64,000 nucleotides of DNA from an uncultured Cohaesibacter sp. (GTDB taxonomy: Bacteria; Pseudomonadota; Alphaproteobacteria; Rhizobiales; Cohaesibacteraceae), in contig NZ_OY781091.1 of NCBI RefSeq assembly GCF_963676275.1, positions 3,078,775 to 3,142,774 of the forward strand, read 5' to 3'. The position numbers and the translations under genes were made by a program. Below, one piece after another: positions 7,373-60,338 of this stretch. Position 1 is the first letter of the stretch. Every line of letters begins with the position of its first letter. The notes below the pieces were generated by a model, which saw only the letters and a program-made list of their open reading frames with translations, had not been told where the DNA came from and made no database searches.

Positions 7373-7392
7373 GCGAGACGTTAAGACGAAGA

Positions 7393-7477
7393 TGGTGGAG
7401 GAGGCTGGATTCGAACCAGCGTACGCTAAGCGAACGGATTTACAGTCCGTCTCCTTTAACCACTCGGACACTCCTCC
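7393..7477 (-). tRNA. tRNA-Tyr (anticodon GTA)
   Basis: The 85-base minus-strand gene has a long variable arm (class II), acceptor GGAGGAG, anticodon loop CTGTAAA and T-arm GGTTCGAATCC, with CCA encoded. It is the first gene of the tRNA-Tyr, tRNA-Gly, tuf cluster. Confidence 0.97.
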
Positions 7478-7917
7478 AAGCTTCGCCTTCCTGTCCCTGC
7501 GAACAGGATGGTCTCGAATTGCCCGCCAAGTCGCGGTCAGTTCGTGAGCGGCTTTATGCAAAACCGCATGCCGTAAGTCAACACCGTATTTTTCATTTTT
7601 GTGGGTATCGCAAAAATCCTGTAACAGACTGGGGATATGTGTCTGGCAAAGACGACAAGGCAGACCGAAAAATGTGCAAATCACAATGTCATCAGTCACT
7701 CCGAACCGATTTCGCATATCTAATGGAAACGCGACGGTCCCGTCTCAGCCCGAAACAAAACGCATTGCTTGCTTTCTTGCGTCTGCTGACGGGTCAGAGA
7801 CACAACATGATCTGGACACCGACCACAACTGGGAACAGAATGGGCAAGACGCCACCCTCGCCAAAGCATGGCTCGACCAACTCGGTTCCTGATCCCAAAA
7901 AGCGAAGCAACAATCCC
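7478..7917. other. Intergenic region upstream of tRNA-Tyr and of the TfoX-domain gene
   Basis: These 440 bases separate divergent units. One plus-strand frame (7599-7892, TTG start) was looked at and judged unconvincing because it lacks a ribosome binding site and any recognisable domain. The leftward tRNA/tuf promoter must lie here but was not resolved. Confidence 0.35.
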
Positions 7918-13208: not shown

Positions 13209-15314
13209 TTACAGCACCAGATCAACTCCACTCATGACATTGCTCCCAACCAGCTCGATTTCAAAGTCGGCGACAGCATCACCATCAACATCGGCATAAA
13301 CAAAGGTGTTGGTCGTGCCCTCGATAAACCAGACAGAATTGGCCATGGCGCTTGAACCGTGGAAAATGAGACTGTCATTTTCGTCTGTCGCACTGTTGCC
13401 ATCAATCGCAGACAGATCAATCTGGTCTTCCAAGATCTCGAACTGATAGATCCTGTCATGATTGGCACCAATCACGCTTTGATTGATATTGGTGAAAACG
13501 AAGGTATCGGTCGCATTGTCAACACCGGCATACATCTTGTCAGCGCCCAGTCCGCCATTCAGCCTGTCGGCACCAACACCACCAAACAGCGTATCATTGC
13601 CAGCGCCGCCATTGAGCTTGTCATTACCGGCGAGACCGCGAAGCGTGTTGTCTCCCGCATTGCCATTCATGATATTGCCCTGCATGTTGCCGGTCGAATT
13701 GAGATCTTCCTTGCCCGTCAGGGTGATATTCTCGATATGCTGACTGTTGGCCTTCAAATTATAGTTGGATGAACTGAAGACCTTGTCGATGCCCTGCCCG
13801 GCCGCTTCATTGATCTTGTCGCCGTAAGCATCCACATAATAGGTGTCATTGCCAAGATTGCCCGACATGGTGTCAAGGCCAGCCCCGCCATAGAGCTTGT
13901 CATTGCCCTGATTGCCAATCAACGTGTCGTTGCCATTATCGCCGCGAAGGATATCATTGCCAATATCGCCGCGCAGCGTGTCATCGCTCGCCTTGCCGAT
14001 GAGCGTGTCATTGCCAACCAGCCCCCTGAGAACATTTTCGCCCGCATTGCCGACCATGCGGTTATCCTGCATGTTGCCGGTGCTGTTGAGATTGGCGCTG
14101 CCCGTAAGCGTGATATTCTCGATATATTGGCTGTTGGCTTTGAGATTATAATTTGACGAGGAAAAGACAATATCGATCCCCTGCCCGGCAGATTCCGTGA
14201 TCTTGTCACCATAGGCATTGACATAATAGCTGTCATTGCCCTGTCCGCCCAACATGATGTCAAGGCCTGCGCCGCCATAGAGCTTGTCGTTGCCATTGCC
14301 CCCCTCAAGCCGGTCGCTACCGCCATTGCCCCTCAGAATGTCTGCGCCTCCTTCACCGCGCAGCCTTTCATCCGCCGCAGATCCAATCAGCGTATCGCTA
14401 TAATCGGAACCACGGACCTCCTCAATGCTGGAAAGGGTATCCCTGTCGCCATAGCCGTCGATTGCCGTGCCGGAAATCAGATTGACCGTCACCCCCGACC
14501 TGCCATAGTTGCCAGCGCTATTCACGGTGATTGCGTCCTTGCGATAATCGATGGCATCATAGCCCGAGCCGCCAATAAAGACATCATTGCCAGCCACGCC
14601 CTGATATCGGGCATAGGACTGGTCTGAACCAATGAAGGTATCGTTATGCATGGTGCCACGGAAGGATTCAATTCCCACCACAGTGTCCGTATCTCCGAAA
14701 CCGTCAATCACGGTTCCTGATCGCATATCGACGGTAATTGCGCCTGTGCCGCCCTCATTATGGTCATTCTGATAGTAGAGATTATCGTGCCCGGCGCCGC
14801 CATTGATATAGTCATCACCACGCCCGCCATAGAGCATGTCATCGCCAGCGCCTGCATTGATGGTGTCGTCCCCGTTGTCACCCCAGATTTGATCAACGCC
14901 AGCACCTCCGGTCAGGTTATCATCACCATCATAGCCACCAAGCAGCATTTCATCGTCTTCTGTCCCGCTCGCCAGAATGCTCATGGTGTCATTGCCAGAC
15001 AGGATGATCGCAAACAGATCCTCCAGATATGTGACATGCGACCACTGGACATGGGGCAGCGAGAAACCGTCGATTTCGGCGTAAATGACAGTCTCGCTGG
15101 CATTGGTATATTCAATTGAGGTCAGTGTTCCCCCTGTCACTTGATCAGAGGCGTTGTAACTGAAGCCCGCGCCCTTGAGGATGGTCAGAGACCCATCATA
15201 ATTCTCCAGAACAATTTTGCTGCTCGTTGCAACGAGCGCAACTAAACTTGGATCGAACACATCGAGCCATTGAGAAACACCGGTATTGGCAGAATAGATT
15301 GAACCCTGAGCCAT
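13209..15314 (-). CDS. RTX (hemolysin-type) calcium-binding repeat protein
   Basis: The 701-residue protein is built largely of RTX nonapeptides (GGxGxDxxx), in runs at about residues 128-180, 320-360, 420-500 and 585-625, which form calcium-bound parallel beta-rolls. There is no classical signal peptide; the C-terminus (DAVADFEIELVGSNVMSGVDLVL) looks like a type I secretion signal, so export by an ABC/TolC-type system is inferred. No toxin or enzyme domain is visible, so an adhesin or matrix-protein role is as likely as lysis. Two copies of a unit of about 130 residues lie in tandem (see findings). Confidence 0.88.
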   Translation of the reverse strand: MAQGSIYSANTGVSQWLDVFDPSLVALVATSSKIVLENYDGSLTILKGAGFSYNASDQVTGGTLTSIEYTNASETVIYAEIDGFSLPHVQWSHVTYLEDLFAIILSGNDTMSILASGTEDDEMLLGGYDGDDNLTGGAGVDQIWGDNGDDTINAGAGDDMLYGGRGDDYINGGAGHDNLYYQNDHNEGGTGAITVDMRSGTVIDGFGDTDTVVGIESFRGTMHNDTFIGSDQSYARYQGVAGNDVFIGGSGYDAIDYRKDAITVNSAGNYGRSGVTVNLISGTAIDGYGDRDTLSSIEEVRGSDYSDTLIGSAADERLRGEGGADILRGNGGSDRLEGGNGNDKLYGGAGLDIMLGGQGNDSYYVNAYGDKITESAGQGIDIVFSSSNYNLKANSQYIENITLTGSANLNSTGNMQDNRMVGNAGENVLRGLVGNDTLIGKASDDTLRGDIGNDILRGDNGNDTLIGNQGNDKLYGGAGLDTMSGNLGNDTYYVDAYGDKINEAAGQGIDKVFSSSNYNLKANSQHIENITLTGKEDLNSTGNMQGNIMNGNAGDNTLRGLAGNDKLNGGAGNDTLFGGVGADRLNGGLGADKMYAGVDNATDTFVFTNINQSVIGANHDRIYQFEILEDQIDLSAIDGNSATDENDSLIFHGSSAMANSVWFIEGTTNTFVYADVDGDAVADFEIELVGSNVMSGVDLVL

Positions 15315-15885: not shown

Positions 15886-15998
15886 TTTGTCGCTTTGCCA
15901 AAATCTGTGAACTGGTTGAAGATCAGTCCCCTGGCTGCGCCAAAGCCGACAAATAAGATTTGCAATAAACTATTGAATATCTTATTTCTTTCCAACAC

Positions 15999-16042
15999 AG
16001 CGCCGGTATAGCTCAGCTGGTAGAGCACCTGATTTGTAATCA
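15999..16042 (+). repeat. attL: 44-bp direct repeat with 5' fragment of tRNA-Thr
   Basis: These 44 bases are identical to 60295-60338. From 16002 they form the first 41 bases of a tRNA-Thr gene, up to the 3' side of the anticodon stem, after which the sequence diverges. The fragment lacks the T-arm and 3' acceptor strand and cannot give a tRNA. It marks the left end of the prophage. Confidence 0.92.
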
Positions 16043-17142: not shown

Positions 17143-17490
17143 TCAATCCTTTTCGCAATTTTTCTTTGGCGGAAATCTAGGCAGGCTCGGATTGTCTTTC
17201 CAGCGTCTGGCCAGAGTAACAATTCCTTCTGCGATCGCCAGCCCACAAAGCCCCATCAGAAAGCCCACAGCGCCCTCGACGCCGACCGCACTGGCACCAA
17301 AATAGCGGACAACAAGCGGCACAGCGATTGGCGTCAGATAGCCTGCCGTGAGTGTCCCGCAAATTGTTGCCCCCACCGTATAGGCCTTGGAACCATGAGG
17401 GTTGATAATGGCCCGCACGAGGCCACCAAAAAAGCCCGCGACCAGATGGGCGAGCTTGACACCTAGGATAGTCTGTACGGGCTCGGTCAT
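17143..17490 (-). CDS. Holin-like small membrane protein
   Basis: The 115-residue protein has three or four hydrophobic, glycine-rich helices (LAHLVAGFFGGLVRAII, TVGATICGTLTAGYL, VGVEGAVGFLMGLCGLAIAEGIV) and a basic C-terminal tail (RRWKDNPSLPRFPPKKNCEKD), the usual shape of a holin. It is last in a leftward lysis operon and overlaps the upstream nuclease gene at its ATG. Holin function is inferred from topology and place; no exact family was identified. Confidence 0.6.
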   Translation of the reverse strand: MTEPVQTILGVKLAHLVAGFFGGLVRAIINPHGSKAYTVGATICGTLTAGYLTPIAVPLVVRYFGASAVGVEGAVGFLMGLCGLAIAEGIVTLARRWKDNPSLPRFPPKKNCEKD

Positions 17491-18239
17491 CAGCCATCCT
17501 CCCGCAGCGTGCAGCCTTCTACAGGATGAGGCATCCAGCTGTTTACCCGTCGCCCCTCATCAAGGCTAGGAGCCAGACGCACGCCGATAAGGGCCTCGAG
17601 CTGCGCGACGGAAATCAGCCGGCAGGTAATGGGCAAGCTATTGGTGGCCACATAAGCCCAAGCCCCTATAGGCGTGATCACTATTTTGAAAACAGATTCC
17701 GGGATCGGGATGCGCTCGGATAGATAATTTGGCACAGCCGAATAGTTGGGTCCGGTGATCACAAAAGCCCCACCTTGCTCCCCCGCCAGCTCACGCGCCT
17801 GCGCCTCGATCATGCGCCAGACGCGCCGGTTTAATTCCGGGATCTGTGGCACCATATTGGCGAGGCCGCAAGTCAGCTGCTGGTCAGCGCCGAAATCGCC
17901 AGCCGGTGTCATGTGACCCCGGTCATATCCGCTGCGCAGATAGTCTGCATTTGTTGCGCCGTCCTCTACCGCACGCGACGGCCCTATCGAGCAGTTTCTC
18001 GCATGAGCTTTAGCATCACTCAACTGCTCGATAGTTATCTTTTGCGCAGACCAAAGCGGTGAACGCATGCGAGCCGAATAACCGATAGTGAAGCCAGGAT
18101 GACAAATCTTCTGATCCACTTCCAGTCTTGGTGGCTCACCATCCAGAACCACATCAAGGCAATCGGCCCGAGCGAAAGCAACAGATGCCAAAATTGAACA
18201 TAACAAGCCCACTAAAATGAGCCCGAATTTCCGCATCAT
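17490..18239 (-). CDS. Secreted DNA/RNA non-specific endonuclease (NUC1 family)
   Basis: The 249-residue protein has a signal peptide (MMRKFGLILVGLLCSILASVAFARA) followed by a beta-beta-alpha-metal nuclease domain. The catalytic motif DRGHM is at residues 106-110, and the metal-binding Asn is in the NMVPQ segment about 25 residues later. Family members degrade DNA and RNA and are exported. An AGGCAGGAAAAA site lies before the ATG at 18239. It overlaps the spanin-like lipoprotein gene by four bases, so it is translated with the lysis genes; degrading host nucleic acid at lysis, or competitor phage DNA in the periplasm, is inferred. Confidence 0.88.
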   Translation of the reverse strand: MMRKFGLILVGLLCSILASVAFARADCLDVVLDGEPPRLEVDQKICHPGFTIGYSARMRSPLWSAQKITIEQLSDAKAHARNCSIGPSRAVEDGATNADYLRSGYDRGHMTPAGDFGADQQLTCGLANMVPQIPELNRRVWRMIEAQARELAGEQGGAFVITGPNYSAVPNYLSERIPIPESVFKIVITPIGAWAYVATNSLPITCRLISVAQLEALIGVRLAPSLDEGRRVNSWMPHPVEGCTLREDG

Positions 18240-18544
18240 TTTTCCTGCCTCATTTCTTGGCAAACCGACTGCCTATCATTGATAGCACAGACCTGCCGCC
18301 TGAGTGTCATCAAGTCCGCCACACAGACACGCAGTGCGCTGTCTGGCGAGGTGGCTTGCAGTTCGTCGATCAACCCGTCGACAAACTGCTTGTTGTAGGT
18401 TTTGAGGGTCGGCACCGGCCAGTCATCCCAATCGGTGACTGCGCTGCTGGCCGAGCCGCTGCCTGAGCTGACGAACCTAGAGCCCGTGCTTGCGCAGCCG
18501 CTCAAGCAGGCCATCAGCACCAACATCATTAATGGCGATCTCAT
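18236..18544 (-). CDS. Outer-membrane lipoprotein, o-spanin (Rz1)-like
   Basis: The 102-residue protein has a lipoprotein signal (MRSPLMMLVLMACLSGCAS) with lipobox LSGC. A short domain with several Cys and a C-terminal half (LKTYNKQFVDGLIDELQATS) that could be helical follows. Its 5' part lies inside the 3' end of the i-spanin-like gene in another frame, the hallmark of Rz/Rz1 pairs. An upstream ATG at 18562 is possible; GGAGGGCAGGCGG before 18544 favours the latter. The size is larger than a minimal Rz1. Confidence 0.7.
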   Translation of the reverse strand: MRSPLMMLVLMACLSGCASTGSRFVSSGSGSASSAVTDWDDWPVPTLKTYNKQFVDGLIDELQATSPDSALRVCVADLMTLRRQVCAINDRQSVCQEMRQEK

Positions 18545-18728
18545 CCGCCCTGCCCTCCGCATCGCGAGCGCGAGATTCCAGCCCGCGCTCTGTCTCTGCC
18601 CTGTCTGCTTCAGCCGCCCGCTTGCGCAGTCGTCGACCGTCTCGCCACTCCTGAAGAGAGGTCAACAGGAGCGGCAGCATAACCTTCAGGGATTGCTGCA
18701 GCAGTATTTTGAGTAGTGTCATCGTCAT
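18477..18728 (-). CDS. Inner-membrane i-spanin (Rz)-like protein
   Basis: The 83-residue product has one N-terminal membrane helix (LLKILLQQSLKVMLPLLLTSL) and a charged region likely to form a coiled coil (WRDGRRLRKRAAEADRAETERGLESRARDAEGRADE), the topology of Rz spanins. It overlaps the lipoprotein gene (68 bases) and the upstream holin-like gene (119 bases). The function is inferred from topology and overlap. Confidence 0.6.
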   Translation of the reverse strand: MTMTLLKILLQQSLKVMLPLLLTSLQEWRDGRRLRKRAAEADRAETERGLESRARDAEGRADEIAINDVGADGLLERLRKHGL

Positions 18729-19218
18729 CACCCGTCAGTTTGTTGATCTGATTGCCGAGCCGCCCCAAGACCATGGCCCTGATCGTTTCTTCGTCGAGGC
18801 CGAAATGTCGGACAGCATCCGGCGCTTTCTCGATCACGTAGTTGGAGACAGTCGCCAGCACTGCACTGCGAACGTAAAAGGACGGAGCCCGCGAGCTGGA
18901 CAGAGCCAGCAGCTGATTGAGCCGCGACTGGATCACCTGATTGAGCGTATCGCGGTGTTTTGCATCGAGCTGAACACCGAAATACTGATGCGCTTTGCGA
19001 GAGAGCCATGTAGTCGCGGCTGTCACCACCGCAACAAGTGCCGCCTCAAAATACGGCAGCATGGCCGAGATCAGCGGGCCGGTATCGATCTGGTAAGTCT
19101 GGGCCTCGGCAGCCAGAGCCAGAGATGGACCAAACGCCACCACTGCAAGAGCCGTGGCAAACAGAACTGCATGAGCGGGCAGGCACAAGCCCGCCGCAAC
19201 GAAAAATGCTTTTCGCAT
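18610..19218 (-). CDS. LL-H-type holin-like membrane protein
   Basis: The 202-residue protein begins with a signal-like hydrophobic segment (about residues 8-36), then a second membrane segment (AMLPYFEAALVAVVTAATTWLS). A helical region with regularly spaced aromatic and Ala residues (QYFGVQLDAKHRDTLNQVIQSRLNQLLAL) and the repeat-like ATVSNYVIEKAPDAVRHFGLDEETI follows. This resembles phage holins of the LL-H type. It is first in the leftward lysis operon, with AGGAG before the ATG. Confidence 0.6.
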   Translation of the reverse strand: MRKAFFVAAGLCLPAHAVLFATALAVVAFGPSLALAAEAQTYQIDTGPLISAMLPYFEAALVAVVTAATTWLSRKAHQYFGVQLDAKHRDTLNQVIQSRLNQLLALSSSRAPSFYVRSAVLATVSNYVIEKAPDAVRHFGLDEETIRAMVLGRLGNQINKLTGDDDDTTQNTAAAIPEGYAAAPVDLSSGVARRSTTAQAGG

Positions 19219-19254: not shown

Positions 19255-19344
19255 GGGGTTGCGATTTAGTGCCATTGGCACTATATTATATTCATAAGCC
19301 AAGGGCAATGAGGCCCACAAATCTCGATCAGACAGGAGATAATC
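19255..19344 (+). promoter_or_regulatory. Palindromic operator-promoter and leader, copy 1
   Basis: A perfect 17-bp palindrome TAGTGCCATTGGCACTA (19267-19283) overlaps the -10 side of a promoter with a weak -35 (TTGCGA) and -10 TATATT. The following leader, with a GGGC/GCCC mini-hairpin and a GACAGGAG ribosome binding site, is nearly identical over about 78 bases to 20943-21020. It drives the anti-CRISPR-like operon. Symmetry placed over a promoter indicates repressor control, probably by the HTH protein at 20692. Confidence 0.8.
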
Positions 19345-19698
19345 ATGGCACTCTCGATCAACAGCAAAAACGATCTCTTCAAGATGAGCTGGCAGGTTGC
19401 CCGCATGGCAGCCGAGAAGTTTGGTGGCAATGCTCGCCAGTATTTCGCCGAATGCCTCAAAGAGGGCTGGAAGCTCTTTAAAAAATCCGAAGAATCCAAA
19501 ACCCCTGAATTGACCGTATTTGACAAGCTCAACACGCTGGCAATCATCGTCATGGGTTGGCCTCGCAAATATCGCGGCTTTGCATACAGCTTTATCCTTG
19601 ACAACGCCGAGCGCGCCTCCCGCTTTGGCTCAAAAACCAAATTCAGCGAAAAACAGCTTGCCATCATCGACGACATGTATGTCAAATATGCTCACTAA
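19345..19698 (+). CDS. Small unknown protein, first gene of the anti-CRISPR-like operon
   Basis: The 117-residue protein is basic and mostly helical in appearance (SINSKNDLFKMSWQVARMAAEKFGGNARQYFAECLKEGWKLFKK). No family is recognised. It has a strong ribosome binding site and sits eleven bases before the AcrVA2-like gene, in one operon under a palindromic promoter. By association it is a candidate anti-defence protein; this is inference only. Confidence 0.75.
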   Translation: MALSINSKNDLFKMSWQVARMAAEKFGGNARQYFAECLKEGWKLFKKSEESKTPELTVFDKLNTLAIIVMGWPRKYRGFAYSFILDNAERASRFGSKTKFSEKQLAIIDDMYVKYAH

Positions 19699-19708
19699 GG
19701 ACATCACC

Positions 19709-20692
19709 ATGCATCCAGCAACCGCAACGCTTAATCAATTCTCCCCCGACTATAAAGACCACTGGCACCAAGTCGATAATCTGCGACAGGCGCGCGGAAA
19801 GCCCGGTGTTGGCGACTGGCCTGCCCGCTGTTTTTTACCTATCGCAGGCTGGCGCGCCATTACCGAGATGGTCAATGCCGACCCTATAATGGCCTCCTTT
19901 GATGCGACCTATCTCGCGGCCCTCGGAGCTTGGCGCTACTCGATGGGCATATACAGCTTTGATCCAGATCTCGCAGCAGCGCTCGCCGAAAGCGAAATCA
20001 ACGGCCAACTACCCGCCGAGGTGCTTTGCCGCCTGCCGGAATGGTGCATTTATGTCGAGGCCCCCGGCCTCACATGGCAAGGCTTTCCGGTGATCGGGTT
20101 TTGGGCCCATCTTGAGTGGGATAACTCACGACTGGGCGACGAGGAGGAACTGCGACTCCTCATTCTGACCAACCAGCAGCCCAAACATGATTTTGATCAT
20201 ACAGCCCCTTTGCCCCTCGCTCTACATCTTGGTGCCAACAATCTCTCCGAGGCTGTCGAGCAATCCATGCAGCTCAGCCTCAAAAATGCCGCCCAGTTTT
20301 TTGGTCAAACCATGGCCTACAGCAAATCACAAATCGCAAGTGACACAGACGAGGCTATGGCCATGCTGTCACTGCTGCTCTATCTCTGCTCCGATGAGCC
20401 CGAGATCGACGATCTGCGCCAGCCCGGCAGCCATCCGGAGCGACCACGCCCCAAAAAGACCAAGCGCGGCTGGAAACTGTTTCCGGCAAAAGGCGCGCGG
20501 CTCTGGTCGGTAGGTGCCGAAACTGGCGAGGCACTGCGCAAGGTTAAGACCGGACAGAGCCACCCGCATAAAGGCCCAGCGCCCCACCTGCGCCGCGCCC
20601 ACTGGCACGGCTACTGGACCGGCCCGAAGGCCACAGGCCAGCGCTTTTCCTACCGCTGGATCAACCCGATATTAGTTAGTGGAGACGACTAA
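19709..20692 (+). CDS. AcrVA2-like anti-CRISPR family protein
   Basis: This 327-residue protein resembles AcrVA2 of Moraxella bovoculi, as I recall that sequence, over its whole length (AcrVA2 is about 322 residues). Shared landmarks are GAWRYSMGIY (73-82), LPEWCIYVE (109-117), IGFW (129-132), a helix ending LCSDEPEI (226-233) and the C-terminal HLRRAHWHGYW (293-303) followed by F-x-Y-R-W (313-317). AcrVA2 blocks production of Cas12a by acting on its nascent N-terminus and message; relatives occur widely, also where no Cas12a is known, so the target here is open. The ATG at 19709 starts at the conserved N-terminus. It overlaps the downstream HTH gene by one base (TAATG). Confidence 0.85.
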   Translation: MHPATATLNQFSPDYKDHWHQVDNLRQARGKPGVGDWPARCFLPIAGWRAITEMVNADPIMASFDATYLAALGAWRYSMGIYSFDPDLAAALAESEINGQLPAEVLCRLPEWCIYVEAPGLTWQGFPVIGFWAHLEWDNSRLGDEEELRLLILTNQQPKHDFDHTAPLPLALHLGANNLSEAVEQSMQLSLKNAAQFFGQTMAYSKSQIASDTDEAMAMLSLLLYLCSDEPEIDDLRQPGSHPERPRPKKTKRGWKLFPAKGARLWSVGAETGEALRKVKTGQSHPHKGPAPHLRRAHWHGYWTGPKATGQRFSYRWINPILVSGDD

Positions 20693-20910
20693 TGCCCCTT
20701 TTGCCGCCCCCAACCGCAGACCAGATCAAGGCCGCGCTCAAAGCCGCTGGCGACAGCCAGTTAGGCGCTGCCCGCCGCCTTGAGATCGACGGCTCCACCA
20801 TGCGGCGATGGATATCCGGAGCCCGTCAGATGGACAGCCGGACATGGAGCCTCTACATGCTGCTCACCGGGCAAGTGAGCCTGTCAGACCTTCACCCGAT
20901 AGAAAAATAA
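20692..20910 (+). CDS. HTH regulator, Aca-like (anti-CRISPR-associated position)
   Basis: The 72-residue protein is a single helix-turn-helix domain (IKAALKAAGDSQLGAARRLEIDGSTMRRWISGARQM) of the type that follows many anti-CRISPR genes. Its start overlaps the stop of the AcrVA2-like gene. Aca proteins repress their own acr promoter by binding inverted repeats; two identical palindromic cores at 19267 and 20943 are fitting targets. Function is inferred; it belongs to no Aca family I can name with certainty. Confidence 0.75.
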   Translation: MPLLPPPTADQIKAALKAAGDSQLGAARRLEIDGSTMRRWISGARQMDSRTWSLYMLLTGQVSLSDLHPIEK

Positions 20911-20933: not shown

Positions 20934-21020
20934 TTGACAATATAGTGCCATTGGCACTATATTATAACCATAAGCCAAGGGCAATGAGGCCCGCATCACT
21001 CGATCAGACAGGAGTTTAAA
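20934..21020 (+). promoter_or_regulatory. Palindromic operator-promoter and leader, copy 2
   Basis: TTGACA (-35, 20934-20939) and TATATT (-10, 20958-20963) with an 18-base spacer form a strong sigma-70-type promoter. A perfect 25-bp palindrome (20939-20963, core TAGTGCCATTGGCACTA) fills the spacer and the -10. The leader copies that at 19284-19344, including GGGC/GCCC and the GACAGGAG site. It serves the 85-residue gene at 21021. Confidence 0.85.
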
Positions 21021-21278
21021 ATGGCTAACCACACTATCAAAATCAACCGCGCTCAGGCTCAGAGCAAATGGGGCAATAATGCCGAAACATTTAGCGCCAT
21101 GCTCGGCCACATCCCCGCCAGCGCAGTCGAAAAACTCACCAGTGCCGAGCTTGCCGAACTGGTCGACGCTATGATGGATTGCGCACAGGCTTCCAAAGCC
21201 ATAGCCGAGCGCGACGTTATCGAAAACGGCTTTGTCTGGGATAGCCAAAACAACCGCTCAATCGAGCTGACAAATTGA
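21021..21278 (+). CDS. Small unknown protein under the second copy of the palindromic promoter
   Basis: The 85-residue protein (MANHTIKINRAQAQSKWGNNAETFSAMLGHIPA...) has no recognised family. Its C-terminus ends in a Trp/Asn-rich stretch (GFVWDSQNNRSIELTN). It has its own strong promoter and leader, nearly identical to those of the AcrVA2-like operon. It is a second candidate anti-defence gene by co-regulation, which is inference. Confidence 0.75.
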   Translation: MANHTIKINRAQAQSKWGNNAETFSAMLGHIPASAVEKLTSAELAELVDAMMDCAQASKAIAERDVIENGFVWDSQNNRSIELTN

Positions 21279-21445: not shown

Positions 21446-21886
21446 TCACCAGTCCGCATTCACGCCGCGCGTGTCCACATGGACACCCCATGGATAAAGG
21501 CCGATGCCGCCGCGAAAGGCCCCGGTCGAGCGATACCATTTGAGCCGATGATAAAGGATGTCATGCGGTGTGTTGGCTGCATGGATATCGCAAGCGCAAA
21601 AGCGCTTATGCTGACTGTCGGGCGCGCCACCCACCGCAGCATTGTAAGCAGGGCAGCGATAGGCATTGGTTATAAAAATGGCCTCGCCGATATCTCTGCG
21701 AAGCCATTCAAGCACCTTGACGGTCGGGATGATAAGCGGCCAGAGTTCTGGCGGCGGGTCTGTATTCAGGCCATACCCCTTGTGATCGGGATCAGAATGG
21801 CTCGCCCCCTTCACCAGCAGCTCGGCTGCTGAAAAGTGCGTGAATTCATGGCTTTTGAAAAAGCCCTCGAAATCCATGTCGCTCAT
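21446..21886 (-). CDS. Endolysin, peptidase M15 family
   Basis: The 146-residue protein matches the M15 zinc carboxypeptidase-like phage endolysins. It has a zinc-binding SQHKRFCACDIH segment (SxHxxGxAxD type) and GIGLYPWGVHVDTR, where the His binds the metal. It would cut peptide bonds in peptidoglycan. There is no signal peptide, so release through a holin is expected. GGAGATAATC precedes the ATG at 21886. It lies next to the tail-fibre gene, separated from the other lysis genes by the accessory island. Confidence 0.85.
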   Translation of the reverse strand: MSDMDFEGFFKSHEFTHFSAAELLVKGASHSDPDHKGYGLNTDPPPELWPLIIPTVKVLEWLRRDIGEAIFITNAYRCPAYNAAVGGAPDSQHKRFCACDIHAANTPHDILYHRLKWYRSTGAFRGGIGLYPWGVHVDTRGVNADW

Positions 21887-21950
21887 GATTATCTCCAATA
21901 AAAAAGCCGCCTTGTGGCAGCTCGGTCAGTTCAGATTGTCAGAACGGTGG

Positions 21951-24900
21951 CTATTTAACCGAAGCCGAAAAGCTCGTGTTTGACGTCCCGCCCAGAACGT
22001 TAACGACCCCCGGAGCCCTTACATACACTTCGTAATAGTCCGTTCCGTTAGCTCGGTCCTCTACGCCGAAATCAACTGTTTGCGACCCGGCAGCAGCAGC
22101 TCTTTCTGTTTTGCTATCGCATATCACACCGTTTTTATACAAATGCAATTCGAGAGCATCACCGACCGCAATAGTCCCACTCAACATAACGCGAAGCTTA
22201 AAGTCATATTCAGCCGGAGGCGGAGTAAAGCGGCTCGTCGCTGCGTTGTAGCATCCGCCTCTATCGTAAAGCTCATTTGCAAACGTTACTTTTGTGTATG
22301 TGTTTGCAGGCGTTATTTCTTGCAATACCCCATTCTTGTTTGCCTTGAATGTCACCGGGAAATGCCCGCCTTGACTGCTTGGCAAGTAGAGCGGAGAAGT
22401 CCCGAAGGTGGCCGTCATTGTGACGACTTCCATATTATTTTTTCCGTAGCCAACCCGTATACCGGTTTGATATTTTCCGGGCAGATGCGTTGCATCATAG
22501 TTGATTGTGATCCCTGCGTGCGCCTGCTGACTGAGAGCCGCCAGATAGAAACGCTTTGCCCGGACGCCGACAATCGTAAGTGTCACAGAATTTGAGCCAG
22601 AGACAAAATACAACACATCTTCGCAAGGCTCGAAGGCAGAGGCATCAATGTCACCGTCAGCAATCGCCGTGGTCAGGTTGATTTGCTCGACCAGCTTTCC
22701 GTCAGACACCGAGCCCCGCAACATGCGGGCTTCAGAAATCCAGCGCTCGACCAACTCGCGCTTTTTGGAACCGCGCAGGTTGATCAACCCACCGTGCCGT
22801 ATCATGTATGGACATTTGACAATCTCAGGCGTTGTCCATGTGACAAAATCCGGGCTGTCCGCATACATGTATGCTCCGTCTCCATATGCATCAACAAACA
22901 TGCGCCATACAGGCTGGTTGCCTGCGTTGTGCACTTTGATGATGCATGGTGCCTCAACATCCAGTCCCCATCCGGTCACAGTTGTTTCAAGCGTAAACGT
23001 GCCGTCCAGCGCCGATGCCGTCCAAATCTCGATATCTTTGGAATACTGGTCCTTTGTGACCAGCTTCACAGCGCCGCCCACCTCATGAATGCGAGCGTCA
23101 ATTTTGCCAACCGTGATAGGGACACCGCCATCCTGCAAATCGAATGCAACAGGCGCGTCAAACGTCAGCTTTTCCCGATCATTGCATTTGGCGTAATAGA
23201 GCCGGAATTGTGGGATTGTCGCCCCGTACTTGTCCAATGCATCGGCGAAATATTCAACCGATGTGGTGATATACAAATCACCGCCATATTCCACCAGCTT
23301 GGATGACCAGATCATTTCTGCCGGGACGTCGCCACCGTCGAACGGCACGGTCGGGCTGTTGATCGCAGTCGGGCCGATTGTGCGCTTGAGCTTGGCAGGT
23401 GGCGACATGAGGTCTTCCATGACCAAAATCTGCGCGTCCCACAAACCATTAGTGGAATCATAGCCGGTGATGACGGACAGCAGTCGGTCGTATTGCTCGT
23501 CCAAGAACAAACCCTGATCCCGACCACCAAACAGAGTGGCCCCTCCGCGCCCCTCGATGTCATGATGATTGAGGCGATTAAGATGTACACCGCCGTCATC
23601 TGAGACATACCAATCTGCCGCGTTATCAGAGTTTGCGCGAAAGAACAAACCTAAAACACTATCGTAGGCTTTGCCTTTGTCTTCGCGTTGCTCTGCTTTG
23701 ATGTTGGTCACATACCAGCTTCCAGTCGCCGAGGCGTTCGCGGCAACCTTGATATAGGCTTTAGCAGAGCGAACGGGCCGCAAGTCTGAACCGATTGTAT
23801 CAGGGATTACGACGCTCGACCCGATCACATCCAGATTGGTTTTGTCCGCATACGCTGTGACCACTGGCAAATCGGTAACACTGCCACCCGCGCCATCGTA
23901 CAACCGCAGACCGATGGTCAAATCAGCGTTTGTCGTGGGTACAGTGACCGCATTCCAGTATCTTTCATAACCCAAGTCGATCAGGCCTTGAGCGCTGAAG
24001 TGGATGTAGACCCCGGAACCCTTCGCGCCGATCAGACCAAAAGATGACGCGACATAGACATTGGAATTTGCCGCAGCGAATGTCGCAATCGAATTGACGA
24101 GCCGTTCGCGGTTAACCCCGTTCCAGTCCGGGCAGGGTTCGCCCACGATGAAGATTGTGCTTGCAGTCCACCAGCTTTCTGCCTCAAGCTGAGTGAGGAG
24201 CGTTCCAAAATCTGTCGCAGCCGTCGAGCTATAAGCAGAGTTTTCAGCGCCCTGATAAACAAAGTAGTCAATGGTTGTTTGACCCAAGTCAGCAAGGGCA
24301 TTCTCAATGTCAGCCTTCATGGCCGCATACAGACGGCTGGACGTGCCGGACCCGACCCATTCGTCAAGGCCCTGCCCTTCCTGCCCGGTTACGACAACAG
24401 CCTGATCCCTGCCGGTTTCATCATAGAGACGTTGCCCAAACGCCACGCCAGCATTTTGCCGACCGCCGCCGATGCCAGTTGAGTTATAAACAGGGCCGGT
24501 CGTGTTGTTCGTCTGGTAAAAAATATCATTTTCAAGGTCAGCCGTTCTGAACTCACCAGCAGAGGCATCCCAGAGGGTCACATTGGAAACCGTGCGAAAT
24601 GGCCCGCCATAGCTATCAGAGTGACCGGTATTGTTGCTCTGTCCGCTCGTAACGACAACCATCTTATCAGTGTTGGCAGTCCCAGCCTCGCCAAGCACTG
24701 TGCGAGAGTTGGCCGCGAAGGCCTTAAGGTCAATCGTCTCGCCACCCGAAACCGAGAAGGCTTTGCCAAGCGCCACCTTCTCAGTCGCCGCAACGGACAG
24801 CACGCCGACATTGTCCGCGCCCGGAAGGCCTGCAAGAGGCGCAACGGTCGAGGACAAAACAACACTATCAAGACCGGTCCAGCCCTTACTGTCGCCAGAC

Positions 24901-25646
24901 AAGAAGGTTCCATTTGTAATAAGCCCGGAGCTGTTATCAACGGAACTTGCCGCCGCTGTTTCCGCAGCTTCTTTCGCGGCTACAGTGGCAACTTTCAGAT
25001 CATTGATTTCATCCCGCAAAGCCTCCACCTGACCGACGACATCCGCAGGAAACATGATCCGCAAGTTGGTTCCATCAGAGAGAATAACTGTCGGCACATT
25101 TGCAGCAAGAGCCCCTTCAGTGAGTGGCGCTCCACCCGGCGAAAGAAGCGGCGCAGGATCAGCATCATCAAGCTCAAGCGTAACGGCATCATCATTGTCA
25201 TAAAGAGGCACCAACAGCAGGCCGCGAATGTCGGATGGTTCCGGACCGGTAAGTGTGCTGGCAGTGATTGCATTCGCTGTGCCGCCAACCCCGGTGAGCA
25301 GCGACATAGAGATTGGCAGATCGGCGATCCACACCCAGTCAGAAACCGCATCAGAATATGCATATATGCCCTTTTTGCCCGCAGCCGTAGTGGTGACGAC
25401 CCATGCGCCCTGACCATCGACCGGATCAGCAATGTCAGCGAGGCCAGCTCGGGAAACCTTATAGATAGCCCCATAGCCCCCCATGGTTTCAGCGCGAGAC
25501 AATCTGGTCGCCAGAGCCCCAGATCCAGCCAACTGCGTAGCCAGATTGGCAACGCTTTGACGAGCGGCAGAATCTTCGCGCAATACAAGTAAGTCATCAG
25601 CAACAGATACAGGATCGACCGTAGTGATTTTTACGCCACTTGCCAT
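21951..25646 (-). CDS. Tail fibre/spike with SGNH (SASA) esterase and beta-propeller glycosidase-like domains
   Basis: This 1231-residue protein has an N-terminal adaptor (1-210), a short helical linker (about 210-240) and a carbohydrate esterase domain of the sialate O-acetylesterase type. The nucleophile motif is GQSN (about 335), followed by GQEGQGLDEW, YQGAEN and an IHFSAQG segment carrying the catalytic His. After a beta-sandwich comes a five-bladed-propeller-like part reminiscent of GH43/62 enzymes (VSDDGGVH, PFDGGDVPAEMIWSSKLVEY, VEAPCIIKV, GHADSPDF-type repeats). Surface polysaccharide deacetylation plus binding or cleavage is inferred. It is the distal tail gene next to the tip protein. 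Confidence 0.78.
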   Translation of the reverse strand: MASGVKITTVDPVSVADDLLVLREDSAARQSVANLATQLAGSGALATRLSRAETMGGYGAIYKVSRAGLADIADPVDGQGAWVVTTTAAGKKGIYAYSDAVSDWVWIADLPISMSLLTGVGGTANAITASTLTGPEPSDIRGLLLVPLYDNDDAVTLELDDADPAPLLSPGGAPLTEGALAANVPTVILSDGTNLRIMFPADVVGQVEALRDEINDLKVATVAAKEAAETAAASSVDNSSGLITNGTFLSGDSKGWTGLDSVVLSSTVAPLAGLPGADNVGVLSVAATEKVALGKAFSVSGGETIDLKAFAANSRTVLGEAGTANTDKMVVVTSGQSNNTGHSDSYGGPFRTVSNVTLWDASAGEFRTADLENDIFYQTNNTTGPVYNSTGIGGGRQNAGVAFGQRLYDETGRDQAVVVTGQEGQGLDEWVGSGTSSRLYAAMKADIENALADLGQTTIDYFVYQGAENSAYSSTAATDFGTLLTQLEAESWWTASTIFIVGEPCPDWNGVNRERLVNSIATFAAANSNVYVASSFGLIGAKGSGVYIHFSAQGLIDLGYERYWNAVTVPTTNADLTIGLRLYDGAGGSVTDLPVVTAYADKTNLDVIGSSVVIPDTIGSDLRPVRSAKAYIKVAANASATGSWYVTNIKAEQREDKGKAYDSVLGLFFRANSDNAADWYVSDDGGVHLNRLNHHDIEGRGGATLFGGRDQGLFLDEQYDRLLSVITGYDSTNGLWDAQILVMEDLMSPPAKLKRTIGPTAINSPTVPFDGGDVPAEMIWSSKLVEYGGDLYITTSVEYFADALDKYGATIPQFRLYYAKCNDREKLTFDAPVAFDLQDGGVPITVGKIDARIHEVGGAVKLVTKDQYSKDIEIWTASALDGTFTLETTVTGWGLDVEAPCIIKVHNAGNQPVWRMFVDAYGDGAYMYADSPDFVTWTTPEIVKCPYMIRHGGLINLRGSKKRELVERWISEARMLRGSVSDGKLVEQINLTTAIADGDIDASAFEPCEDVLYFVSGSNSVTLTIVGVRAKRFYLAALSQQAHAGITINYDATHLPGKYQTGIRVGYGKNNMEVVTMTATFGTSPLYLPSSQGGHFPVTFKANKNGVLQEITPANTYTKVTFANELYDRGGCYNAATSRFTPPPAEYDFKLRVMLSGTIAVGDALELHLYKNGVICDSKTERAAAAGSQTVDFGVEDRANGTDYYEVYVRAPGVVNVLGGTSNTSFSASVK

Positions 25647-25658
25647 GGTGTTTACCTC

Positions 25659-28600
25659 TTATGTGATTGATGCAGTGAAAGGCCCGCTCACAGGCCCCGG
25701 ATTGCCATCGGCATTTTGTGGCTCGATGTAATAGTCATAGATGCCTTGATCGACACATGCGCCAGTCTCCTCAAACAGCACAACATCATCGACAGAGCCG
25801 TCGAAGTCAGCATCAGCTACCAGAGAGAAAAGACTGTTTCCGGTCACCGCCCCAATGCGATCCAGATGAGAGCCGTCGGCGCTGACAGATGCGCCAGCCT
25901 GATCGGAGCCACCAGAAAGCAGAGGATTGAGTGCACCGGCAGTCATCCCGGAAACCACATATCCAAGCCGATAATATTTGCCTGCAGTGAAGCTGATTGT
26001 CTGCTCAAGATCCCCAGCAGCACCGGAAGCATGCGAAGCCTTGCCACCGGTAATTGACCAGCCCGTGCCAAGCGTCCAAGATGAGACACTACCGAAGGCA
26101 CCATTGCTCAACAGAGTGGCGCGCGTACTGTCTCCATCGGTCATATTGACAGAGCTGGATGGCGCAACCGCAACAGCCGCCCCGACAGCATGAATAGACC
26201 GATCAAGAGCTGAACCAGTGGGTACGCGATACAATTGAAGCTGCGAGGTCTCGACATCAGATGTTGTTGTCAGTGCAATGGTGGCATGCCCCAAAGAACC
26301 GATAACAGTGATGAGCCCATCATCCAGCGCCGTGGGCAAAGCAGGATCTTCAGAGCCGATTGTGATGGTAATCGTGGCGGTGTATTCACTCACAACACCA
26401 TAAAGCGTTGCAGCCCTGATCCGGATGTCAACTTCTTCACCGGATGAATATCCGTCTATATCATCTCCACCATTGGCGACAGGGATGGTCTTGGTTGTCC
26501 ATACTGTTGATGATGACAATTTGTGGTCAATCTCATAGAAGGACGTCACCGCCGCCGAGCCGGTTCCCGCGCTCAGAAGAATGGTCAAGCCATCAATGTC
26601 GCCAGTACCGGCATAGCCATGTGCAACCGATGTAACAACAGGGATCGCCGGAGCGACAGTGCCGCCATCCACTTCCTCGCCGACATAACCATCCCATGCG
26701 GGAGGAATTTCAGCATCGGTCAGATCGTCGATCTCCGGAGCCGCATCAATCATGTGTACGACTCCAGAAAAATTCTCAGCAGGCTCTATGCCTTTGACCC
26801 TGTATGCGCGAGAAACATTTGCCAGCGGGCCAAAGTGAATGAGATCACCAACAGTGGGAACGTTGGACTTGTCCTTGATGTTGATTGATGTCCACTCGCC
26901 CTCATAAGAATGAACCTCTGATGTAACGAAACTCACATACTCGGTGCCATCATCATCATAAGAATAGGTCTTGAAGCGAATGCCATAGCTCTGACCAGCA
27001 TCCATGCGGACCCGATCATCCAACTCAACCAGATGATCAGATACGGAAATCACGCGAGCTGAAACCTGAGTGCGCGCGATAACATCATAAGAGCCCATGA
27101 CCAGATCGCCCCGCGTAGCCACGCGAGCCGCACCGCTCTGTATCGCGCTATAGCTATCTGGGCGATAGAGCAGCTCATAGGCACGACGACGCCCCTCAAT
27201 CCAGATTTCGTCAGGGTCGGTCTTGCCGGGCAGCGAGATCTCCTCGGTAACATCCGGAGTGCCCACAAATCCGGGCCATGGCACAATGCGGGTGGCTGGC
27301 TCATAGTTGTTCGTGGCATCTTTGAAATCGATCCGGAATGCGTCCGGTGGATCGAAATAGATACGCTGCCAGGAAAAGTCAGAACTGTTACGCGGCGACA
27401 TATGGTCAATGACCAGATCTGTCGGTCGATCCACAACAACAGTCCATTTAGTTCCATCGTGACGAGGCGTGGCGCGCCCCGCCGAACAAATAGTCGCCAG
27501 CATGTCACCAAGACTGACAGGCTCATCGAATACATAATCAAACTTGAGCCCCTTGGTTGCGCAAAACTGATACCATTCGGCGATCTCGCCAAGATTGATC
27601 TGATCATCGGAAACCGGGAATGGATTATGTTTCCCCTTGAGAGCCCGCACATAGGCACTGGCCGGGTTACTGCCATTACCGTCAACCCAGTTGGTGCCAG
27701 TGAAAACCGGCATTTCGCGCTGAGCCAAAGCGTTAAAATTATCAAGCGCTCCATTGAGCTGATAGGTTGCCTTGATGCGCAGAGCAACAAGAGCAATCGG
27801 CTTGTCGAAGTTGATCGGGTATTCCGGACGAATTGATTGCAATCCTGCAAACACACATCGATCTGACAGTTGGGTCGATGTGCGCTCGTCCGTTATGCGC
27901 GTCACTTCAATCTCGTAACGACCACGGCTCGGCAGCTCCCATGTATGCTGCCGAAAGAAGGTCTCGCTCTTTTTGGCAGAAATGGTAAGCGTGGTAACTA
28001 CTGTCCAATTCGTCTCGCCATAAAGCCGCTGCCGGATCCGTATCTTGACCGACAGAGACTTGTAATTTCCATTATCGTCAACCAAGAACAAGCCACTCTG
28101 GAAAGCAATAATCACAGAGGCAGAACTGGCATTGGCGGCAGTCTGACGAACTATCGGCGTTTCTTCTGTAGCCTCCGATTTCAGGATCTCGCCATCATCA
28201 TCGCGCGGATATGGACGCACCAATTCAACAGACACGCTCTCCTCAATCACCTGACGTGGATAAAGCGTAATAGGATCATCCCCCGCGCGCCCTTCTCTCA
28301 CCTCGATCTCAACCTCGTCATAGTCGTCGAGGCTGGTATCACCGATGCGAAGATCGCTGAGCAGCACAGGCCCATACCCAAACGTAAACAATGCGCGGAT
28401 ATACTGATAGTCTCCGACAATTTCGGTATAGCTGGTTGCAGCAAAAGGCGGCGCATAGCGATGCTTGCCAGCAATCCATGGCACCACATCCAATGCTGTA
28501 GGAACGCGATTGCGCCAGCCAGACAACTGATAGCTATTCTTCTGATCCTGATTGCTAAATGTCGGCTTTGCGGGTGGAATGAGCGCATTGACCAGCAAAG

Positions 28601-54157: not shown

Positions 54158-54235
54158 TTCTGCATTTATGCTGATATTTGATCTTGACAATTCTGCATTT
54201 TGAGTTGTTAAATATCTGCATTATTGCAGAAATGG
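54158..54235 (+). promoter_or_regulatory. Rightward early promoter with repressor operators
   Basis: TTGACA (54184-54189) and TTAAAT (54208-54213) overlap operator half-sites TTCTGC (54158-54163) and ATTCTGC (54190-54196). A full site TCTGCA TTAT TGCAGA (54215-54230) follows the -10, then TGGAG before the ATG at 54246. The whole block mirrors the leftward promoter at 52267-52315, so one repressor probably silences both. Confidence 0.82.
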
Positions 54236-54245
54236 AGCGCTCGCC

Positions 54246-54398
54246 ATGACCACCATCTACATCCCCGAGGCCCAGCGCCCGCCGCTATCGGCCCACGCGC
54301 GCAAACTTGCCGATCTGGCCTTTCACGCTGGCGGATCAGCTGTAGGCACAGCCATGATTGTTTCCACCATGATTGCATTCTTCGGAGCGGTTCTATGA
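54246..54398 (+). CDS. 50-residue membrane protein, first gene of the rightward early operon
   Basis: The frame [21 protein letters not shown]... ends in a hydrophobic helix ([21 protein letters not shown]). It starts just after the operator-promoter with TGGAG upstream and overlaps the gapR-like start by four bases (ATGA). Function unknown. Confidence 0.65.
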
Positions 54399-54655: not shown

Positions 54656-54657
54656 AC

Positions 54658-55355: not shown

Positions 55356-55392
55356 TCCTATTTCGAAATGTCCGCGCAACTGCGGATTAGCT

Positions 55393-58880: not shown

Positions 58881-59129
58881 ATGACCCCTCGCCTCATCTC
58901 AAAGCAGGCTGCGGCTGACTATCTCAGTGTTTGCGTTGCTACGCTGGACAGCTACATCCAGCAAGGGCTTTTACCCGGACCTGTCGCCAATACGCGCCGT
59001 TTTGATCGCCTCGCAATCGACAGGGCACTAGACAAACTCAGCAATCTGCACTCTAGTGATGGCCAGACATCAAGCGCTTATGCGCGTAGGCAGGCAAGGA
59101 AACGGGCAGAGGCCAATGGTCAACGGTGA
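58881..59129 (+). CDS. xis: Excisionase-like MerR/AlpA-type HTH protein
   Basis: The 82-residue protein has a winged HTH (LISKQAAADYLSVCVATLDSYIQQGLLPGPVANTRRFDRLAIDRAL) of the excisionase type and a basic tail. It overlaps the integrase start by 14 bases, the usual xis-int arrangement. It would bend attachment-site DNA and favour excision. Confidence 0.85.
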   Translation: MTPRLISKQAAADYLSVCVATLDSYIQQGLLPGPVANTRRFDRLAIDRALDKLSNLHSSDGQTSSAYARRQARKRAEANGQR

Positions 59130-60252
59130 TATCAAGGGTATCCATCGCTATTCTAAGAAGCTGTCTGACGGTACCGTAAGATATTATTACAAGGTATCGC
59201 GCGAAAAGGGTGCGCCTGTCTTTTGGACCAGAGACCACCTACCAGAGCGCGAGCCGCTCAGGCAAGACTTTGTTGCTGCCTATATGGAGGCGCGCGCCGC
59301 ATGGTTTAAGGGACCGGTTGCCGAATGTGACACCATCAGCCATCTCATCCTGCGGCTGCAACAAACGCCAGACTTCAAGAAACTGGCCAAAGCAACCAAG
59401 ACCTACTACCAGGAAGCCTTTCCTGCCATCCTTGAAGAATTCGGCGAGGATGAGATCGCCGCCTTTGAAGACCGCTCAATGCGCAAAGATGTCAAGATGT
59501 GGCGTAATCAGTGGCGCGAGACGCCTCGTCAGGCCGACAAGATGCTAGGCACCCTTGTGTACCTGCTGAATTTTGCTGTCGATGAGGGCGAGATCACCGG
59601 CCACGTCCTCAACAAAATCAAACGCCTGCATAAATCTGATCGATCCTATATCATTTGGGAACAAGAAGACATCGAGGCCTTTAGGTCCGATGCACCGGAA
59701 CATCTCAAATGGGTGATCGATATCGCCACCATGACTGGCCTGCGTCGTGAGGATCTGGTCACCATCCCTGCCAACGCCGACAAGGGCAGTCACCTTGAAT
59801 GGCGCACAAGCAAAAGCGGACGCCGCACAACGATCATGGTGCCCATCGTTGGAGAGTTGCGCGCCGCGATTGATGCTATCAAGTCCCATAAAGCCCAGTA
59901 TGAAATCCGCAGCACCACCCTGCTATGCAACTCGCGCGGTAAACCATGGACCGGCATGGGCCTGTCTGCCAGCTTTAGAAAGCAGGCCGCAAAACATGGC
60001 ATCGATAAAACCATGCACGACATGCGTGGAACAGCTGTGACGCACTACAAAATGGCAGGGCTGGAAGACAACGAAATCGCAGATATCGTCGGCTGGAAAA
60101 AAGCTGATGTGGAAAAGATAATTAAGCTTTACATCAATAAGGAAGCTGTGTTAGCAGCCATCATCCAGAAAGTTGAAAAAGAACGTCTTCAGAACAAAAA
60201 CTGTAAACCGGCTGTAAACCGGTGGAAAAAGTCAAAAAACTCTGATGACTAA
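59116..60252 (+). CDS. int: Tyrosine recombinase integrase
   Basis: The 378-residue protein has the catalytic set of phage integrases: R210 (TMTGLRREDL), a Lys near 233 (WRTSKSGR), H301-x-x-R304 (HDMRGTAVTH), W327 in the His/Trp position and Y339 (IIKLYINK). It integrates the phage at tRNA-Thr(TGT). Its gene ends 45 bases before the rebuilt tRNA. A fragment of a related integrase lies left of attL. Confidence 0.95.
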   Translation: MVNGDIKGIHRYSKKLSDGTVRYYYKVSREKGAPVFWTRDHLPEREPLRQDFVAAYMEARAAWFKGPVAECDTISHLILRLQQTPDFKKLAKATKTYYQEAFPAILEEFGEDEIAAFEDRSMRKDVKMWRNQWRETPRQADKMLGTLVYLLNFAVDEGEITGHVLNKIKRLHKSDRSYIIWEQEDIEAFRSDAPEHLKWVIDIATMTGLRREDLVTIPANADKGSHLEWRTSKSGRRTTIMVPIVGELRAAIDAIKSHKAQYEIRSTTLLCNSRGKPWTGMGLSASFRKQAAKHGIDKTMHDMRGTAVTHYKMAGLEDNEIADIVGWKKADVEKIIKLYINKEAVLAAIIQKVEKERLQNKNCKPAVNRWKKSKNSDD

Positions 60253-60294
60253 TAGCATAAACAACACATTGATGTTAAACGGCTATTTCAACAA

Positions 60295-60338
60295 AGCGCC
60301 GGTATAGCTCAGCTGGTAGAGCACCTGATTTGTAATCA
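60295..60338 (+). repeat. attR: 44-bp direct repeat within tRNA-Thr
   Basis: Identical to 15999-16042. It covers three bases before and the first 41 bases of the tRNA-Thr gene, up to the anticodon stem. Crossover therefore took place in the 5' half of the tRNA. Confidence 0.92.

Follow-up and report, generated by a model that had tools for sequence, protein, structure and literature searches.

P0001, a prophage protein of an uncultured Cohaesibacter species, belongs by sequence to one protein family with AcrVA2, the anti-CRISPR protein that acts on Cas12a, and FinQ, the fertility inhibitor of IncI plasmids. The gene for P0001 lies in a 64,000-nucleotide stretch of the chromosome (hereafter the window), where it shares a small cassette with a gene for an Aca10-like regulator, P0002, and with two operator-like palindromes; sequence comparison established the family, the neighbors, and the palindromes and their places. 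P0001 is in itself one more member of the AcrVA2 family, and the interest lies in AcrVA2 and FinQ being one family. By analogy with these two relatives, P0001 is probably a counter-defence or anti-competitor protein of a mobile element that lowers the level of a target mRNA during translation. The original prediction for this locus, an AcrVA2-like anti-CRISPR protein, was right about family and gene layout and too narrow about function: the homology and the layout stood, whereas P0001 is not an orthologue of AcrVA2 and the family, which contains FinQ, is not specifically one of anti-CRISPR proteins.

Of 177,635 distinct PDB sequences, only AcrVA2 (7CI1/7CI2) was matched by P0001 with E up to 1 (E 1.5e-20), and the profile phrog_6160 matched residues 9-326 at E 3.4e-56. 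AcrVA2 homology had been proposed from shared motifs, with an HMM comparison among the suggested checks, and the profile and sequence matches were both significant. The motifs GAWR...GIY, LPEWCIYV, LCSDEPEI, and RRAHWHGYW of P0001 align in order, in two stretches, to the 323-residue chain of 7CI1, and GFW, which lies between those stretches, is aligned with the AcrVA2 of Moraxella phage in a multiple alignment. Thus, the ordered landmarks and the closely similar length (327 versus 323 residues) that had been pointed out beforehand were both recovered, and their order together with the alignment to 7CI1 means that the likeness is not due to chance. On the evidence of its sequence, P0001 is a real, if distant, homologue of AcrVA2. 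The same profile is matched by a protein of Moraxella phage Mcat4 (E 2.3e-106), which, as judged by its match to 7CI1 (E 3.4e-125), is beyond doubt AcrVA2-like. Searches with Pfam, NCBIfam, and PADLOC models returned no match to P0001, and no Pfam model matched FinQ or the Mcat4 protein.

The family is widespread on mobile elements. Searches with P0001 (tblastn, E up to 1e-3) found relatives in 776 plasmid records out of 72,556, with 614 of the 776 typed as conjugative, and in 91 of 50,697 phage records. Among 60 plasmid rows distributed along the ranking, many were annotated as finQ (E 2e-17, about 26% identity), and one Erwinia phage record carries a family member already annotated as "putative protein FinQ". 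FinQ matches phrog_6160 at E 1.1e-47 and, when used as a query, finds 7CI1 at E 3.6e-17, its only other match (E 0.04) being a hydrogenase subunit. In the multiple alignment P0001 is 23% identical to Moraxella AcrVA2 and about 23% identical to FinQ. A tree of 32 rows, in which long branches leave the deep placements unsure, places P0001 among 14 proteins from plasmids, prophages, and genomes (identity 38-44%); the support for this set of 15 rows is 94/89, just below the program's mark. The Mcat4 AcrVA2 and a Shewanella phage protein form a pair (100/100) away from P0001, and the branch that bears FinQ is long and has weak neighbors. Judged by the 23% identity and the separate branch, P0001 is a member of the family and not an AcrVA2 orthologue. 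In the literature searched we found no paper that treats FinQ together with AcrVA2 and none that treats FinQ together with anti-CRISPR; the original papers of 1989 and 2018 and the preprint may state the link.

Two possible marks of the family in its gene neighborhood were considered and rejected. Conserved neighbors were not apparent among 21 loci, which showed only small clusters of ORFs, the largest of five ORFs and none of them linked to P0003 or P0004. Nor is a small downstream gene for a DNA-binding protein the rule, as only three of ten candidate ORFs, which were picked by eye from 35 loci, reach the cut-off of a Pfam helix-turn-helix model. One locus, from Pseudomonas mendocina (L008), holds two AcrVA2-family genes (6001-6897 and 11200-11682) about 4.3 kb apart, the second of which matches only residues 159-325.

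Conservation within the family is concentrated near the C-terminus, where P0001 carries the RRxHWHGYW block of the family. The mean column entropy over the 32 rows is 0.90 bits for residues 290-306, as compared with 1.94-1.95 bits for residues 263-327 (which contain the block) and 67-160, and 2.35-2.55 bits for residues 1-66, 160-240, and 241-262; the HWHGYW region had been singled out beforehand as the most conserved part, and so it proved. Residues W75, G269, H293, R295, H298, and G305 are invariant in all 32 rows. An AF2 model of P0001 built from 26 rows (mean pLDDT 87.8, pTM 0.88) has helices at residues 3-27, 45-53, and 59-78, followed by a middle part of mixed structure and, at the C-terminus, by four short strands, an order of helices and strands that agrees with the description of AcrVA2 as a three-part protein in PMC10846135. 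The block may also be a module that is shared beyond the AcrVA2/FinQ family. In a search of the genus, the second match, in another genome (G005; locus L046, minus strand, match at 1501-1596), was to a protein of about 377-429 residues that has only the AcrVA2/FinQ-like C-terminal block in common with P0001 and is otherwise unlike it in sequence searches. This protein ends in HWRRGHWRRQPYG...VWIKPVLV and matches phrog_15934 at E 9.9e-6 and phrog_6160 at E 0.0012.

The placement of the locus in a prophage, also part of the original prediction, was borne out by genes for integrase, portal, terminase, capsid, tape measure, and endolysin proteins in the window and by a 50-bp att-like repeat, the right copy of which lies in a tRNA-Thr gene beside the integrase gene (Table 1). 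P0003, P0001, and P0002 lie head to tail on the plus strand (19345-20910), with P0004 next, and are flanked by two groups on the minus strand, holin/nuclease genes (17143-19218) on one side and endolysin and tail genes (21446-29015) on the other. The layout is that of a moron cassette. The start codon of P0002 overlaps the stop codon of P0001 as TAATG. An alternative start for P0001 at 19520 (TTG, 390 codons) is in the same frame, and the start at 19709 is favored because of the homology and of an AAGGA just before it. A full-length member of the family was found in one of 18 Cohaesibacter genomes, the carrier itself being counted, and thus the gene is a recent arrival together with its prophage.

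Table 1. Features of the prophage and of the P0003-P0001-P0002 cassette in the window
Feature	Position	Strand	Basis
Left att-like repeat	15993..16042	.	50-bp direct repeat, 98% identical to 60289-60338
Promoter-like site TTGCGA-17-TATATT (9/12), before the operon	19259..19287	+	consensus scan
Operator-like palindrome TTAGTGCCATTGGCACTAT, one arm mismatch, inside the operon promoter	19266..19284	.	
P0003, 117 aa, opening gene of the operon, with a Phage_Gp111 domain at its N-terminus	19345..19698	+	Pfam PF07410
P0001, 327 aa, AcrVA2/FinQ-family protein	19709..20692	+	phrog_6160
Most conserved block of P0001, codons 290-306 (PAPHLRRAHWHGYWTGP)	20578..20626	+	32-row alignment, entropy
P0002, 72 aa, Aca10-like helix-turn-helix protein	20692..20910	+	best PDB match 7XI5, E 3e-4
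Promoter-like site TTGACA-18-TATATT (11/12), before P0004	20934..20963	+	consensus scan
Operator-like palindrome ATAGTGCCATTGGCACTAT, perfect arms, inside the P0004 promoter	20942..20960	.	
P0004, 85 aa, orphan small gene, same operator as the P0003-P0001-P0002 operon	21021..21278	+	
Prophage integrase	59056..60252	+	phrog_1, E 5e-22
Right att-like repeat, inside tRNA-Thr	60289..60338	.	partner of 15993-16042

The match of P0003 to PF07410 (E 4.4e-8, 34.1 bits) exceeds the cut-off of 27.1 bits, and 15 phage records were matched by P0003, none of them over 80% of its length. For P0004, we found no match among Pfam, NCBIfam, or phrog models and nothing among phages at E up to 1, and neither P0003 nor P0004 has a confirmed relative in the viral contigs. 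P0003, with its Phage_Gp111 N-terminus and orphan C-terminus, and the orphan P0004 share operators and are candidate counter-defence genes. Two further genes in the window deserve mention: one among the lysis genes (17490-18263) encodes a nuclease-family protein (phrog_14168, E 1.1e-27) with a secretion signal apparent by eye, and one just outside the left att-like repeat (13209-15314) encodes a 701-residue protein in which GGxGxDxL-type repeats were seen by eye.

What might P0002 control? Its best PDB match, which is modest, is to 7XI5, and the next match is at E 0.072; Pfam helix-turn-helix models match it only below their cut-offs. 7XI5 is Aca10, described as the repressor of the acrIC7-acrIC6-aca10 operon, which reads DNA with Q22, Q37, and R44 at the minimal site ATACGCTCATTGAGCGTAT (PMC9410881). 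At the aligned places P0002 has Q23, R38, and R45, so that two of the three readers are kept (Q22 and R44) and Q37 is replaced by arginine. Both palindromes of the cassette lie in the spacers of promoter-like sites, seven of which occur in the region as compared with a mean of 1.5 in shuffled sequence. The two palindromes differ by one end base, and the leaders downstream of them look alike by eye. ATAGTGCCATTGGCACTAT and the Aca10 site have the same length (19 bp), the same ATA/TAT ends, and the same C-ATT-G center, and differ in their inner bases. Within three mismatches the palindrome occurs at these two places only in the 5.03-Mb genome, and a reversed control pattern has one match. The window holds one perfect ATT/AAT-centered palindrome of this size, compared with an average of 0 over 20 shuffles. 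With one mismatch allowed the count is three (shuffle mean 1.15), and of these the palindrome at 27400 is unrelated. As judged from these sequences, P0002 very likely represses both the operon and the P0004 unit through the two palindromes, so that P0003, P0001, and P0004 would be made in a burst when the repressor is missing; of the steps proposed here, this one has the firmest backing. An acr-aca arrangement, with a helix-turn-helix gene overlapping the stop codon of its neighbor, had been recognized at the outset; the TAATG overlap, the likeness to Aca10, and the operator-like palindrome in two promoters all agree with it.

A second, independent case of this arrangement is a prophage on viral contig L022. 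There an AcrVA2-family gene (5959-6909), whose product is 43% identical to P0001, is preceded by two small genes and followed by genes for a 109-residue protein and a 60-residue helix-turn-helix protein (7391-7570). The latter protein shares 36% identity with P0002 (E 9e-7) and is a clearer homologue of Aca10 than is P0002 (E 7.6e-10). Ahead of the second unit, at 6935, is the perfect palindrome ATATATCCATTGGATATAT, where shuffled sequence would yield 0.02, and the first unit is preceded at about 5259 by a near copy that was read by eye, ATACATCCATTGGATATAA. The combination of an AcrVA2-family gene with an Aca10-type protein and a pair of such operator-like sites thus occurs twice. Among eight loci scanned for ATT/AAT-centered palindromes, perfect arms were present in L022 only; L008, L011, and L021 have imperfect palindromes only, and in L023, L031, L002, and L024 no such palindrome was detected even with one mismatch allowed. 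An Aca10-like operator is not a general mark of the P0002 family, as none was found in four viral contigs with a relative of P0002.

How might P0001 act? AcrVA2 is reported to lower Cas12a mRNA in a translation-dependent manner by reading the nascent, LSKT-bearing N-terminus (PMC13131331; also PMC10403363). For FinQ, a review states that it terminates transcription of tra at several sites independently of Rho (PMC8744291), and the mechanism was thus published as termination and not as decay. Thus, with mRNA decay in the one case and a cut in tra transcription in the other, both relatives are reported to act at the level of target RNA. We propose that P0001, encoded second in a small cassette that runs opposite to the neighboring lysis and tail genes, would be held in check by binding of P0002 to the palindrome between the -35 and -10 boxes, which would repress the operon and the P0004 unit. 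Upon infection or induction, when repressor would not yet have built up, P0001 would be produced in a burst. Its variable N-terminal and middle part would then read, on the ribosome, the nascent chain of a particular protein of the host or of a rival element, and its conserved C-terminal block (H293, R295, H298, W303, and G305) would engage machinery common to bacteria, with the result that the target mRNA is lost. The uniform block would provide the common step and the variable remainder the choice of target, a division of labor that we infer from the pattern of conservation. Here the target would not be Cas12a; candidates are Cas9 of this host, a function of a plasmid or phage, and another defence.

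P0001 is likely directed against either a rival element or a defence of the host. That it does so through loss of target mRNA during translation, as the papers on AcrVA2 and FinQ lead us to infer for so distant a relative of both, has in our view an even chance of being correct, and the entire explanation, comprising the family, repression by P0002, reading of the nascent chain, and mRNA loss, seems to us equally balanced. Counting against it are the roughly 23% identity to the relatives, the crystal structure of AcrVA2 with a Cas12a peptide, the publication of FinQ action as termination, the modest match of P0002 to Aca10, its sub-cut-off matches to Pfam helix-turn-helix models, the loss of Q37, the finding of perfect palindrome arms in L022 alone among the eight loci scanned, and the absence of LSKT from 33 tra proteins of F. 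This last result led us to reject LSKT as a shared target motif; a relaxed pattern gave a single loose N-terminal match, LTKS at residues 3-6 of TrbB, which proves nothing, and the N-terminus of the host Cas9 has no LSKT.

An alternative is that P0001 resembles FinQ in its role and silences a rival plasmid, conjugative element, or phage, thereby guarding the host niche of the prophage. FinQ is itself a family member, the family is common on plasmids, as described above, and genes for VirB4-type ATPases are present in five of 14 genomes of the genus. But the element that carries it is a phage, VirB4 had no match in its own genome, and the Aca-like control points to counter-defence; we consider this alternative unlikely.

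Somewhat less probable still is that P0001 is an anti-CRISPR protein against the type II system of the host or its kin, acting on Cas9 or on its mRNA, with P0003 and P0004 as fellow anti-CRISPRs. Control of the Aca type is typical of acr operons, and about 125 kb beyond the window the host encodes a Cas9 of 1103 residues and a type II Cas1 and has a CRISPR array with 14 repeats and 13 spacers, a system that we take to be II-C from its size and gene set. The Cas1 gene beside cas9 is the only one in the genome (the search was positive in nine of 14 controls). A survey of Cas systems in related genomes, which had been suggested along with the original prediction, found Cas9 in five of 18 examined genomes of the genus; the Cas12a model, TIGR04330, gave no match and matched no control genome either. 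Among 19 other genomes that carry the family, however, Cas9 was above cut-off in none, and Cas1 was found in ten and not seen in nine. Thus, no single CRISPR effector tracks the family, and the idea of an effector common to all carriers was dropped. The likeness of P0003 to AcrIIA3 is also slight, being a weak N-terminal match of 13.9 bits, far below the cut-off of 70.

The spacers of the array bear on the same question. Spacer 8 has its best match in the window at 54465, in a phrog_4212 gene (7 mismatches), and spacer 4 at 56560, in a DNA methyltransferase gene (8 mismatches; 9 for spacer 1, a near copy), both genes being part of the prophage, as if relatives of the phage had once been targeted. 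Of 100 shuffled spacers, two reached 8 mismatches and two reached 9. But with no spacer nearer than 7 mismatches to the window, self-targeting, which would have served as proof of an anti-CRISPR function, is not proven; the matches point to earlier encounters with relatives of the phage rather than to present self-targeting. The best matches of spacers 1, 4, and 8, and the weaker ones of spacers 7 and 12, all fall within 54224-57738, among early prophage genes.

About as improbable as an action on Cas9 is that P0001 is a steric inhibitor that binds its target protein directly, with loss of mRNA as a side effect. AcrVA2 was crystallized with an internal peptide of Cas12a, residues 618-634 (7CI2; PMC13131331), and direct binding of protein is therefore possible; its activity is nevertheless described as depending on the encoded N-terminal residues and as lowering mRNA (PMC13131331). 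Finally, that P0001 is a genuine inhibitor of Cas12a, retained for use in other hosts, as its homology with AcrVA2 (7CI1) might be taken to imply, is very improbable, since P0001 is on a distant branch and Cas12a had no match (with a model that matched no control) in the host, the 19 other carriers, or 397 genomes of the phylum, whereas phrog_6160 was matched in 14 of a same-sized sample of 397, the window's genome included and several matches being fragments or weak. In one of these 14 (G434), tblastn with P0001 found nothing at E up to 1. An AcrVA2 orthologue aimed at Cas12a was thus rejected as the leading reading on the basis of the Cas12a and Cas1 searches and the tree, and the suspicion voiced in the original prediction that the target is other than Cas12a was a reasonable one, with a lone Cas1 beside Cas9 and no Cas12a match to that control-less model.

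Returning to loss of target mRNA as the preferred mode of action, we note its consequences for the family. How FinQ acts has been a question since 1989. AcrVA2, whose mode of action, loss of mRNA triggered by a nascent chain, has been called unique in prokaryotes, now has a fertility inhibitor as a homologue, which suggests that AcrVA2, FinQ, and P0001 may silence the mRNAs of different rivals in like manner. Each of the two known proteins thereby offers a way to test ideas about the other: whether FinQ works at translation and, if so, the nascent chain of which tra protein it would read. In its boldest form, to which we incline only tentatively and at somewhat less than even confidence, AcrVA2 and FinQ would be specialized members of a mobile-element family of translation-coupled mRNA silencers, a bacterial counterpart of tubulin autoregulation, in which the variable part reads the nascent chain and the near-invariant C-terminal block triggers mRNA loss. 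The Rho-independent termination of F tra transcription reported for FinQ would then be nascent-chain-triggered mRNA loss, and P0001, under control of an Aca10-type repressor, would silence a third target, perhaps the host Cas9 or a rival element. The label "AcrVA2 homologue" is in any event no evidence for inhibition of Cas12a, and Aca10-like operators offer a handle for finding further cassette genes, here P0003 and P0004.

Three known proteins of the family invite comparison with P0001, and one with P0002. ORF43 of Shewanella phage vB_SbaS_Y11 is, like P0001, an AcrVA2-like phage protein from a host for which no Cas12a is stated, its publication naming a type I-E system in a Shewanella genome (PMC10846135); unlike P0001, it groups with Moraxella AcrVA2 at 100/100. 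FinQ of IncI plasmids shares with P0001 its PHROG (phrog_6160), the C-terminal block, and carriage on a mobile element, and differs in its identity of about 23% and in that the annotation of its locus (L036) shows no small regulator directly downstream, trbA-C following instead. Moraxella AcrVA2 (7CI1/7CI2) resembles P0001 over its full length (327 versus 323 residues), in motif order, in the RRxHWHGYW block, and in its prophage setting with a small regulator downstream; it differs by an identity of about 23%, by its separate branch, by the lack of a Cas12a found in the present host, and by a regulator of another family, the 66-residue gene after the Mcat4 homologue having no Pfam match. Meanwhile, Aca10 of Pseudomonas citronellolis (7XI5) resembles P0002 in length, in its helix-turn-helix, in Q22 and R44, in being encoded by the last gene of its operon, and in a 19-bp palindrome of ATA...C-ATT-G...TAT layout within a promoter. 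In P0002, by contrast, Q37 is replaced by arginine, the inner half-site is GTGC rather than CGCT, the acr gene is a different one, and the operators of the window also cover a second unit, that of P0004.
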